NCBI GenBank assembly: GCA_947166385.1
Contig: CAMVEB010000022.1
Location: 1-64,000 of the forward strand
DNA from: an uncultured Clostridia bacterium
Lineage (GTDB): Bacteria > Bacillota > Clostridia > Christensenellales > Aristaeellaceae
Length of the DNA: 64,000 nt
Direction of reading: 5' to 3'
Numbering within the stretch: position 1 is the stretch's first letter; each line of letters starts with the position of its first letter. The notes beneath the pieces are model-generated. The model saw only the letters and a program-made list of their open reading frames with translations. It was not told where the DNA came from and did not search any database. Below, in pieces: positions 11,406-62,998 of this stretch. The translations under genes were made by a program, and so were the position numbers.

Positions 11406-11660
11406 TGCATGTTCCTCCTGTCTGATAAAAACTCACATCATTCAGAATACAGCAGACGGCACGAAATGTCAATCATTTCAAGGGCTGACCGGCACCCGAA
11501 TACCTTTTCTTCCGCCGAGACTTCCGACGCGGATCAGATGGGGCGGAGAAAGGCTGCAGACATGGGGTGAAAGCCCTTGATGGCCGGGAAAGCTCACTGA
11601 TTTCCGGGGCGTTGACGGGAGAAAGAAGAGGGAGTATAATATCCGCAAGCCACTTGAAGC

Positions 11661-11776
11661 TTCTTCGGGGATGGGTGTAATTCCCTACCGGCGGTATAGC
11701 CCGCGAACTGAGCTGCAAAGCCCAGCCGATCCGGTTGGATTCCGGAGCCGACAGTACAGTCTGGATGAGAGAAGAA
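11661..11776 (+). ncRNA. FMN riboswitch (RFN element)
   Basis: TTCTTCGGGGATGGGTGTAATTCCCTACCGGCGGTATAGCCCGCGA...GCCGATCCGGTTGGATTCCGGAGCCGACAGTACAGTCTGGATGAGAGAAGAA; P1 TTCTTC/GAAGAA. Confidence 0.97.
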
Positions 11777-11883
11777 ACGGTACAGCAGATCCGGCGTGAT
11801 CCGCCTTGAACCTGTCCGCCCCTCAGAGCGAAGCTGCTTTGGGGGGCAAAGTATTTTTATGAGGAAAGGCGAAGGTGACTGGA

Positions 11884-57601: not shown

Positions 57602-57824
57602 CTGGTGGAGCATAGTGGAGTCGAACCCCGTCTCGCTGCGCTTCGCTTGCTCGGTCAGGTTCGCAATAGTCGGCTGTCTTCTCTGCCGTTCGACAGCCTT
57701 CTTTGCTCACCAGGCTTCCGCCTCGCTTCATCCGCCACTGGCGGCGCTTCGGCTACGCCCCTCTCCAATGCATTCAGTGCAATGACGGGGCAGGGGATGC
57801 GGACACTCCGTGCCCGCATAAAGA

Positions 57825-57855: not shown

Positions 57856-57860
57856 CTTTG

Positions 57861-57933
57861 TGGAGCATAGGGGAGTCGAACCCCTGACCTCGACAATGCG
57901 AATGTCGCGTCCTCTCACCCTCCCCTGTATTCC
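57861..57933 (-). pseudogene. Degenerate tRNA-like sequence with CGC in the anticodon position
   Basis: Minus strand: GGAATAC AGGGGAGGGTGAGAGGACG CGACA-TTCGCAT-TGTCG AGGTC AGGGG-TTCGACT-CCCCT ATGCTCC A, 73 nt; intact anticodon and T arms, no D arm. Confidence 0.55.
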
Positions 57934-58019
57934 GCTGATACCGGGACACGAATGCAGGTGACCATCCCACCCCATACCGGGACCCTGGGACAATCCCGAA
58001 CCCACAAGGAGGAATGACC

Positions 58020-58217
58020 ATGTATGATTCTGCTGCTGTATCGATTGACGACGACAAACTGGAAATGATTCATTGTGTAAATTGTGGGGCACCGATCGGA
58101 AAGTTCGGTGATGGAAGCACCGCCGACCTTGTCTGTCCCCGGTGCAAAGAAAAAATTGGTATTCAGATCCGTAAAGGAGCAAAGCTCTCAGTACTTGTAA
58201 AAGACCAGAAACAGTAA
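58020..58217 (+). CDS. Small Com-like zinc-ribbon protein
   Basis: MYDSAAVSIDDDKLEMIHCVNCGAPIGKFGDGSTADLVCPRCKEKIGIQIRKG (two CxxC); RBS aaggagg before ATG at 58020. Confidence 0.7.
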   Translation: MYDSAAVSIDDDKLEMIHCVNCGAPIGKFGDGSTADLVCPRCKEKIGIQIRKGAKLSVLVKDQKQ

Positions 58218-58247
58218 TCCCGTTTTCACCCGTTTCGGATATCAGGG

Positions 58248-58464
58248 TCCTGAACTCACCGGTTCCTTCCAGATCGCGGGGATCAAAGCGCGAAACCATC
58301 GCGCGGAAGGAATGTTGAAGTAGAGACGAGGCCGGTCCGCAGCGGAAGATCTGTGACCAGGTGTTGAACTCACCGGATCCTGTCCGGACCCGCAGGGTCA
58401 GAGCACGGCCGCCGCAAGGCAGCCGGCGGACAGCATCCTTGAAGTAGAGAAGAACCTGGCAGAT
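58248..58464 (+). ncRNA. Candidate structured RNA, two tandem copies
   Basis: Conserved TGAACTCACCGG ... TTGAAGTAGAGA flanks enclosing sequence-divergent but structurally equivalent helices: TTCCTTCC/GGAAGGAA in copy 1, TGTCCG/CGGACA and GGAT/ATCC in copy 2. Confidence 0.6.
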
Positions 58465-58701
58465 TCCCATGGGCGCCAGGCGTATGCCTGCCCGCCCGGA
58501 AGGAGTCTGCCGGGCTTTTTCTTTTTCCGGCAATCAATCAAGTAAACATGCTCTTGAGCGTACGTAGAGAGCGATGGATACGGAATAGTCCAGGGGATTC
58601 AACGCAATCCCTCTGACTGTTCAGGTGTTCACCGCTGTTCGCCGTGCGCCTTTTCTGTGTCCATCGCTTTCCGTGCTCTCCGGGCGGAGAGGAAGGACAT
58701 C

Positions 58702-59391
58702 ATGAAAAAAGGCATCCCCTGCAACGAGTATACCGAATACGGACCGAAGCATCAGAACAGCATCACCTTCACTTTTGTGACCGATGACGGCCTGACCCCG
58801 TCGTTCTTCCGGATTTCCCTGGGAGATCCGGATCCCCTGACCGGCGAACCCATCTCGGATAGGACGATCTTCCGGGAGTACCATTGCCAGCGCAACCGGG
58901 AAATCTATTATAACAAGCTCGCCGCCGCGGTTCCCTTCACGCAGAGGGAGCAGGAGGAGCGCCGGCACCTCCGGGATCAGATCGCCGCGGATTTCGAGCG
59001 GGATTATGGCTACCCCCTGACCTCCGAGGCCGTGGACATCCTGCTCAATGAGCGCCATCCGAAGAAGTACCGCGTGGAGCTGGACAGCCTCGTGACCAAG
59101 GAGGGCAATCCCTGCCTGGATGCGCTGATGGCCCTGGCGGATCCGACGGCCGAAAGGGCCTTCCTGGATGCGGAGAGCGACGGGGAGCGGGTGGAGAAGC
59201 TCCGCGCCTTCGCCGCGAAGCTCACCGGCCGCCTCCGGGATGTCTATGATCTCATGCTGCAGGAGGCCGCCGGCTTCAGCACCCATGGCCAGGCGCTGGA
59301 CATCGCGAAGAAGTGGGGCGTCACCAAGTCCTGCATCTCGAAGGATAAGCTGCGCCTGATCCGGGATATCCGCCGGTGGATGGAGGAATAA
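58702..59391 (+). CDS. Phage-type RNA polymerase sigma factor-like protein
   Basis: C-terminal sigma-like HTH DIAKKWGVTKSCISKDKLRLIRDIRRWMEE; phage replication-module neighbours. Confidence 0.5.
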   Translation: MKKGIPCNEYTEYGPKHQNSITFTFVTDDGLTPSFFRISLGDPDPLTGEPISDRTIFREYHCQRNREIYYNKLAAAVPFTQREQEERRHLRDQIAADFERDYGYPLTSEAVDILLNERHPKKYRVELDSLVTKEGNPCLDALMALADPTAERAFLDAESDGERVEKLRAFAAKLTGRLRDVYDLMLQEAAGFSTHGQALDIAKKWGVTKSCISKDKLRLIRDIRRWMEE

Positions 59392-59882: not shown

Positions 59883-60126
59883 TCCAGCTCCGGCCCCTGA
59901 ACCCACTCCCGCTCCAATTCCTGACCCCCCGCTGCCCCCTCCGACCCTGAAGGAAGTCCGGGCGCTCCTGACGGTCAAGTGCGCGGAGGGCTACGGCAGC
60001 CAGGTCCGGGCGCTCATCGCGTCCTTTGGCGCGACCTCGCTCTCCGGCGTCCCGGAGGCATCCTATCAGGATCTGATGGACGCGGCCCAGCTCCTGGGAG
60101 AGGGGGAATCGCCCGATGCCGGCTGA
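59782..60126 (+). CDS. Phage-associated protein of unknown function
   Basis: Pro-rich linker then LKEVRALLTVKCAEGYGSQVRALIASFGATSLSGVPEASYQDLMDAAQLL; overlaps the next gene start. Confidence 0.65.
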   Translation: MTDRKDLRAGIEQMRSVAQLLLLWAKDLEQSLTDPAPAPEPTPAPIPDPPLPPPTLKEVRALLTVKCAEGYGSQVRALIASFGATSLSGVPEASYQDLMDAAQLLGEGESPDAG

Positions 60127-61249
60127 CCACGCGTTTCTTTCTCCCTCCTCCTTGATCCGCTGGTATTTCTGCCCGCCGTCCGCGCGGCTGTGCGATCAGT
60201 TCCCGGATCAGGGGAGCGTCTTCGCGGCGGAGGGTACGGAGGCCCACGCCCTCTGTGAGTACCTCCTGAAGTCCGCCCTCGGCCGGCCCTGCGTCGATCC
60301 CCGGCCCTCCCTGCAGTACTATACCCCGGAGATGGAGGAATCCGCGTCCGGCTATGTCCAGTACATCCTGGAGAAGGTGGAAGCCCACAAAGCTGCCGCC
60401 GGCCTGTCGCCCTCCGTCTTCGTGGAGCAGCGACTGGATCTCCGGGGCTACATCCCGGAGTCCATGGGCACCGCCGACTGCGTGATCATCGCGGGCGATA
60501 CCGTGGAGATCATCGATTTCAAGTACGGCATGCACCGGGTCCCGGCCACGTCCATGCAGCTCCGGATCTACGCCCTCGGCGCCTGTGAGGTGTTTTCCGC
60601 CCTCTATGATCTGACCCGCGTCCGCATGGCGATCTACCAGCCCCGCCTCTCCTCCGTGGATGAGACGGAGATGACCGTCGCGGATCTCTATGCCTGGGCC
60701 CGCGCCGAGCTCGCTCCCCGCGCCCGCCTGGCTTTCGACGGGGCAGGGGAGTTCGCCTGCGGCGACTGGTGCCGCCTCTGCCGGGCCCGGCGCAGCTGCC
60801 ACGCCCTGGCGGAGTACCAGCTGGAGATCGCGAAGTATGATTTTTCCGATCCGGCGCTCCTGTCCGATGCGGAGATCGCCGATGTCCTCTCCCGGGTGGA
60901 TGATCTCGTCGCCTGGGCCTCGGATGTGAAGGACTACGCCCTCCGGGAAGCCCTGAAGGGCCACGCCTATCCCGGTTTCAAGCTCGTGGAGGGCCGGACG
61001 AACCGCCGCTTCACAGATGACGCCGCCGTCGCCGCCCGCGTGGAGAGCGCCGGCAGGGATCCCTGGGAGCGGAAACTCCTCGGCGTCGCCGCCCTGGAAA
61101 AACTCCTCGGCCGGAAAGCGTTCGCCGATCTGCTTTCCGATCTCGTCACCCGCCCGGAGGGCAAACCCACCCTCGTTCCCGTTTCCGACAAACGCCCGGA
61201 GCTGATCACAGCCCGGCAGGAATTCACAAATGAAAAGGAAGGTATCTGA
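60116..61249 (+). CDS. DUF2800 phage PD-(D/E)XK nuclease-like protein
   Basis: HAFLSPSSLIRWYFCPPSARLCDQFPDQGSVFAAEGTEAHALCEYLL; VEIIDFKYGMHRVPA; CxxC-type GDWCRLCRARRSCHALAEYQLE. Confidence 0.88.
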   Translation: MPADHAFLSPSSLIRWYFCPPSARLCDQFPDQGSVFAAEGTEAHALCEYLLKSALGRPCVDPRPSLQYYTPEMEESASGYVQYILEKVEAHKAAAGLSPSVFVEQRLDLRGYIPESMGTADCVIIAGDTVEIIDFKYGMHRVPATSMQLRIYALGACEVFSALYDLTRVRMAIYQPRLSSVDETEMTVADLYAWARAELAPRARLAFDGAGEFACGDWCRLCRARRSCHALAEYQLEIAKYDFSDPALLSDAEIADVLSRVDDLVAWASDVKDYALREALKGHAYPGFKLVEGRTNRRFTDDAAVAARVESAGRDPWERKLLGVAALEKLLGRKAFADLLSDLVTRPEGKPTLVPVSDKRPELITARQEFTNEKEGI

Positions 61250-61251
61250 AT

Positions 61252-61839
61252 ATGAGCAAGACTACCATGTCCCCCAAAACCCCCGTCTCCACCCGTATCG
61301 TCACCGGTCCCCGCACCCGTTTCTCCTATTGCCATCTCTGGGAGCCCCGCTCTTCCTATGGCAATGAGCCCAAATACTCCATGTCCTGCATCATCCCGAA
61401 GGATGATACGAAGACCGTCGCCCTGATCAACGGTGCCATCGAGGCGGCCTACCGGGAGGGCGAGGCCAAGCTGAAAGGGAAGGGCGCCATGCCGCCGCTG
61501 TCCGCCCTGCGGACGCCGCTGCGCGACGGCGACCTGGACCGCCCGGATGATCCGGCCTATGCCGGCTGCTGGTTCCTGAACGCCAGCGCCGCCACGGCGC
61601 CCGGCATCGTGGATGCCCAGGCCCAGCCGATCCTGGACCGCGCGGAGGTCTATTCCGGCTGCTACGGCCGGGTCTCCCTGACCTTCTTCGCCTATAACTC
61701 GAACGGCAACCGCGGCATCACCTGCGGCCTGAACAACGTCCAGAAGATCCGGGACGGCGAGCCCCTCGGCGGCCATATGAGCGCCGAGCAGGAATTCGCA
61801 GCCTTCACGGACGATGATGACGAGGATTTCCTGAACTGA
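61252..61839 (+). CDS. DUF2815/Enc34-type ssDNA-binding protein with acidic C-terminal tail
   Basis: RIVTGPRTRFSYCHLWEPRSSYGNEPKYSMSCIIPKDD...GRVSLTFFAYNSNGNRGITCGLNNVQKIRDGEPLGG; tail FTDDDDEDFLN*. Confidence 0.88.
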   Translation: MSKTTMSPKTPVSTRIVTGPRTRFSYCHLWEPRSSYGNEPKYSMSCIIPKDDTKTVALINGAIEAAYREGEAKLKGKGAMPPLSALRTPLRDGDLDRPDDPAYAGCWFLNASAATAPGIVDAQAQPILDRAEVYSGCYGRVSLTFFAYNSNGNRGITCGLNNVQKIRDGEPLGGHMSAEQEFAAFTDDDDEDFLN

Positions 61840-62748: not shown

Positions 62749-62874
62749 GGCAGATAAGATGATCAATGTACACCGTTCCAATGTCCGCCGAGCAGGAATT
62801 CTCCTCCTCCACGGATGACGTGGTTGAGGTTAATCAAAACAATTGACAAATCACCGCGTATTTGCAATAATATG

Positions 62875-62998
62875 GATGCGGGGAGTAATCCCACGCGTAC
62901 CCGCCCAACGGAGTCGAGTGCTTAAGCGACTTGTAAAGTCGCCCGCAGCGGGGGGAAGCCGCCTTATGGCGGCTTTCGATGTTTATGGGGGCTTCCAG
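62875..62998 (+). ncRNA. Candidate structured leader RNA upstream of DUF3800 gene
   Basis: GCGACTT-gta-AAGTCGC (62926-62942) and AAGCCGCC-TTAT-GGCGGCTT (62956-62975) plus possible GCGGG/CCCGC pairing. Confidence 0.55.

Follow-up and report, generated by a model that had tools for sequence, protein, structure and literature searches.

A tandem structured RNA without an Rfam match in a prophage-type operon leader, read as a candidate transcription attenuator

The window, i.e. the whole 64,000-nucleotide stretch of DNA analysed here, carries a leader of structured RNA elements between a small zinc-ribbon protein gene and an operon (sigma-like, DUF2800 and DUF2815 genes) that, judged by its sequence, looks prophage-type. 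The features of the locus are as follows.

58020-58217, + strand (start at 58014 or 58020): gene for a small zinc-ribbon protein of 65-67 aa, directly upstream of the leader
58243-58336, + strand: tandem RNA copy 1, with loop strands 58251-58262 and 58315-58326
58349-58464, + strand: tandem RNA copy 2 including its outer helix P1, with loop strands 58365-58376 and 58439-58450
58455-58526, + strand: intrinsic terminator, with arms 58455-58467 and 58502-58514, an inner hairpin and a U-tract at 58516-58526
58558-58701, + strand: second structured RNA, a long 5' hairpin (outermost pairing 58558-58564/58643-58649) followed by a ribosome-binding-site hairpin
58702-59391, + strand: sigma-like gene (229 aa), the first gene after the leader
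60116-61249, + strand: DUF2800 gene (Pfam PF10926), same operon
61252-61839, + strand: gene for a DUF2815 / Enc34-type ssDNA-binding protein (PF10991), same operon

The gene at 58702 had been called sigma-like in a first-pass annotation made from the sequence alone. Its product gave no significant match to any sigma factor model or other family, and the label is kept because the syntenic genes of relatives match Sigma70_r4; an AlphaFold prediction made without an alignment was too poor for use (pLDDT 49). Homologs of the zinc-ribbon gene were found at the same place in genomes G160, G113, G067, G156 and G183. In loci L010, L011, L013 and L014, the sequence 5' of the zinc-ribbon gene contains a further structured stretch without an Rfam match, in which a conserved GCUGCUUCC-stem-GGGCUGG-stem-GUUGA is followed by a hairpin with a AUGCCCCC-like loop, and stem changes keep pairing as judged by eye. 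Elsewhere in the window, a 25-nt direct repeat (57605-57629 and 57860-57884, 96%) matches one end of a tRNA-like sequence on the minus strand (57861-57923; 32.5 bits in Rfam, without an ARAGORN call), together a possible attachment-site remnant at the prophage edge. A DUF3800-I RNA (RF02969, 72.2 bits) lies at 62871-62987 (+), just 5' of a DUF3800 gene, and an FMN riboswitch (RF00050, 114 bits) at 11657-11780 (+).

The two units of the tandem RNA (76 and 86 nt) have TGAACTCACCGG and TTGAAGTAGAGA in common. Both 12-mer pairs reported in the first-pass annotation were found, each present twice and at the positions it gave, and they belong to longer, imperfect direct repeats (22 nt at 86%, 58246/58360; 15 nt at 93%, 58315/58439). 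In both copies, the closing helix encloses two hairpins and is itself flanked by the two loop strands. In copy 1, this helix pairs 58263-58270 (TTCCTTCC) with 58305-58312 (GGAAGGAA) around hairpins at 58272-58284 and 58288-58304 (stems GATC/GATC and GCGCGA/TCGCGC), while the stems of copy 2 are GGAT/ATCC together with CTGTCC/GGACAG, then GACCC/GGGTC, followed by a GC-rich hairpin. We confirmed that these stems and the matching fold exceed shuffled sequence for each copy: dinucleotide shuffles equalled the closing helix and first hairpin at a rate below 0.5% for all four copies of the window and G160 (window copy 1, 0.0048; window copy 2, <2e-4; G160 copy 1, <2e-4; G160 copy 2, 2e-4). Against shuffles, folding of the whole region gave z -2.2 on the plus strand and z -3.0 on the minus strand; the low minus-strand value is expected because the region is palindromic, and the terminator U-tract is present on the plus strand only. 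A coding explanation for the tandem region was rejected because gaps of 1, 2 and 8 bases between the window and G160 break the frame; an ORF of 292 aa that overlies the region on the minus strand extends across the tRNA-like stretch as well.

Among 31 genomes of the genus, G160 gave the sole long DNA match (73% over ~200 nt). Its order of zinc-ribbon gene, two copies, terminator, second element and sigma-like gene is that of the window, with ~150 nt of other sequence separating the terminator from the second element. All four copies share UCC/GGA as the inner end of the closing helix, and their outer pairs change together (UUCCUUCC/GGAAGGAA, CUGUCC/GGACAG, AUUUCUUCC/GGAAGAAAU and GUUCUCUCC/GGAGAGGGC); the first hairpin appears as GAUC/GAUC, GACCC/GGGUC, GGCC/GGCC and GAUCC/GGAUC. 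Thus the covariation-like evidence that had been claimed from one locus, suggestive in the window alone, gains two more copies, and the proposed tandem structured RNA is borne out by a homolog that keeps fold, layout, terminator and downstream gene as the stems change. This covariation is visible but formally non-significant, because the unit is carried by two loci only. The MAFFT alignment puts part of the closing helix, the main helix of the tandem, out of register; the shuffle control made on it was weak, and we therefore relied on the per-copy shuffle tests. In G160 (L004, 1578-1792, minus strand), the second hairpins of the two copies, unlike the remaining stems, are nearly identical over ~30 nt, which suggests recent copying between the two units.

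A covariance model was built from the four copies (two of the window, two of G160) and scored 76-107 bits on those same four. When searched against 309 family and 382 class genomes, it recovered the G160 homolog with its compensated stems, but a third locus was not found. Those weaker matches that were inspected (19-27 bits) were rejected, being aligned without the conserved loops or coding-like. An exact-pattern search of genome contigs gave 33 matches in unrelated taxa, a chance-level number, none with a member-like score. No tandem copy lay beside the DUF2800 genes of other DUF2800 prophages in the same genomes, and the phage and plasmid collections gave no tandem match. An Rfam scan left the tandem of the window without a match from the gathering threshold through E 10, self-cleaving ribozyme families included. 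Overall, the tandem RNA is real, uncatalogued and narrowly distributed.

The outer helix that had been drawn around copy 2 exists, although it sits one base further left, joining ATCTG (58349-58353) and CCAGGT (58357-58362) to ACCTGG (58454-58459) and CAGAT (58460-58464). Its reading had to be corrected, as an intrinsic terminator had been overlooked: the 3' strand of P1 is the terminator's 5' arm, and P1 is for this reason better read as an antiterminator. The terminator has a 13-bp stem and a U-tract on the plus strand in both the window and G160. P1 (58454-58464) and the terminator arm (58455-58467) share bases and thus cannot coexist. For transcripts ending between 58465 and 58505, the computed pairing probability of P1 was mostly 0.95-0.97, with a minimum of 0.87 at 58480; it fell to 0.5 at 58510 and to 0 from 58515, where the terminator reached 1.0. 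The terminator arm paired with upstream RNA to a greater extent than in any of 150 shuffled sequences for the window and than in ~95% for G160, which is borderline, and one P1 pair of G160 is A-C; the same comparison did not support an antiterminator in the distant leaders of G067, G156 and G183. A simple duplex-energy comparison of this arm with upstream RNA reached significance in no locus and is uninformative. At full length, the minimum-energy structure contains the terminator and is favoured by 17 kcal/mol over the antiterminated fold; control would therefore have to be kinetic or strongly assisted by an outside partner. No promoter was recognised before the tandem unit or before the second element.

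The leader also runs past the limits first given for the element, which stood only for the tandem part, into a second two-state RNA that includes the ribosome-binding site. In this RNA, strand 58571-58581 can pair with either 58625-58635 or 58657-58667, the latter otherwise pairing with 58695-58700. The succession of a long hairpin and a hairpin over the ribosome-binding site is found in the window, G160, G113, G067 and G156, and the alternative pairing of 11-16 bp is kept in all six leaders (G183 included) at a cost of 0-13 kcal/mol. Both sides had changed in 11 of 50 pairs, a number equalled by 0-3 of 500 shuffles, and slid controls were far lower. Covarying and two-state, the second RNA has the predicted pattern of a translational switch for the sigma-like gene. 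Loci L012 and L009 have a different leader before the sigma-like gene, in which an ACGGAG further 5' can pair, by eye, with a CUCCGU that otherwise covers the ribosome-binding site; this three-strand logic is like that of the second RNA, and it seemingly occurs in the DUF2800 RNA loci L075-L078 as well.

We read the leader as a cis-acting transcription attenuator with tandem binding sites in a prophage operon, to which we give a probability of roughly 60%. The basis is computed: the fold of the tandem and its conservation in G160, the terminator and its overlap with P1, and the covarying second element. The nascent RNA would fold two copies of a conserved internal-loop module, one after the other, and P1 at the base of copy 2 would take up the 5' arm of the terminator that follows. 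If the leader is transcribed, a partner bound to the conserved loops would stabilise P1 in its closed form and the bound state would be on, polymerase reading into the second RNA and the sigma-like/DUF2800 operon; without the partner, the longer terminator hairpin would displace P1 and transcription would end. The second RNA would add a translational step in which the ribosome-binding site is hidden or freed. Two copies would mean a dimeric or cooperative partner, and the candidates may include a small molecule, the adjacent zinc-ribbon protein or RNA polymerase.

The RNA family is new; the regulatory logic is ordinary. Mutually exclusive antiterminator and terminator structures on the coding strand, the hallmark of intrinsic-terminator attenuators, were found in the window, G160 being borderline. 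ANTAR proteins offer a parallel, as two consecutive RNA units 5' of an intrinsic terminator are read by a dimeric protein (PMC3369931), and there, as in the window, the antiterminator excludes the terminator. However, each ANTAR unit is a small hairpin whose hexanucleotide loop is conserved at positions 1 and 4, and the window hairpins have no such loop; an AUGGAA loop occurs in both copies of G160 only.

A special case of the attenuator explanation names the zinc-ribbon protein as partner: similar to Mu Com, it would bind the tandem loops and/or the second RNA and release the downstream gene. In Mu com/mom, a small zinc-ribbon gene likewise lies directly 5' of a structured leader, in which the start signals of the following gene are hidden, and Com opens the start-site structure of that gene (PMC6483171). 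The zinc-ribbon gene is directly 5' in all six loci with such a leader arrangement and was not seen in L009, L012 or the DUF2800 RNA loci. Profile comparison of the zinc-ribbon protein with Mu Com gave an hhalign probability of 89% over the four-cysteine ribbon, a tentative resemblance from a comparison that covered these two zinc ribbons only. The leaders of the six zinc-ribbon loci also share a symmetric 3x3 purine-rich loop, seen as CCU-GAA-CUC/GAG-ACG-AGG and GUU-GAA-CUC/GAG-AAG-AAC in the window, as GUU-GUA-CUC/GAG-AGG-AAC in G160 and as GCU-GRA/ARG-AGC in the other loci. It had 18 matches compared to 4 on average in 300 shuffles (maximum 12) and none in L009 or L012; these statistics are optimistic and the loop is a lead only, because the motif was drawn up from leaders already inspected and these belong to related loci. 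On the other hand, no Com family model was among the Pfam matches listed for the zinc-ribbon protein, PHROGs gave only E 0.06-0.1 (gpCom 0.098), the SELEX-derived Com motif CC(N)2-3GAG (PMC6483171) was not enriched, and the window differs from com/mom in having neither a family-level match nor a Com motif and in involving a transcription terminator. We regard a Com-like switch as possible, at odds well short of even.

If the partner were instead a metabolite, each copy would be an aptamer, and ligand on copy 2 would close P1 so that transcription continues. The conserved internal-loop strands (~12 + 12 nt) around variable stems, present in two copies with an expression platform directly 3' of them, are what such a tandem riboswitch would show. 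Tandem glycine riboswitches also consist of two similar units in series and an expression platform; the window differs in giving no Rfam match. Since no Rfam riboswitch was matched even at E 10, the unit occurs only in prophage leaders of one genus and not at metabolic genes, and the 3' loop consensus is gone from G160 copy 1, we find this reading rather doubtful.

A stand-alone phage small RNA, with the downstream gene served by its own promoter, would fit a terminator that closes off the tandem and the other sequence that follows it in G160. It would, however, leave the overlap of P1 and terminator purposeless, the order with the downstream gene is fixed, and the lack of a recognised promoter before either unit also speaks against it, making it unlikely. 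By analogy with HK022 put, phage origin and two structured units 5' of a terminator could also point to an RNA acting directly on RNA polymerase so that terminators are ignored, but the local overlap of P1 and terminator suffices to explain control and we consider this very improbable.

The attenuator reading can be set beside DUF2800 RNA (RF02960), which likewise lies directly 5' of a sigma-like gene, in a prophage operon of the same type, and whose loci resemble the second RNA in that a terminal hairpin can cover the ribosome-binding site; DUF2800 RNA has no tandem unit, however, and the loci examined have no zinc-ribbon gene. RF02960 had no covariance match in the window at the gathering threshold or at E 10, and weak matches were found in relatives' leaders before the sigma-like gene (L009, 33.5 bits; L022, 28.6 bits). 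In order-level relatives, two of the three genes tested that lie directly 3' of DUF2800 RNA matched Sigma70_r4. The zinc ribbon together with the tandem and second RNAs looks like a control module alternative to DUF2800 RNA, as suggested by the few loci compared. A bolder and tentative proposal, which we think improbable as a whole, is that the phage-encoded zinc-ribbon protein reads the tandem purine loops and controls the one operon twice, by antitermination and by the translational switch, in a module interchangeable with DUF2800 RNA. The uncatalogued family enlarges the small set of structured leaders known from such prophages, and the function proposed for them is staged control of the operon's first gene. 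With leader types exchanged at one spot, a role of DUF2800 RNA as a translational switch becomes testable.
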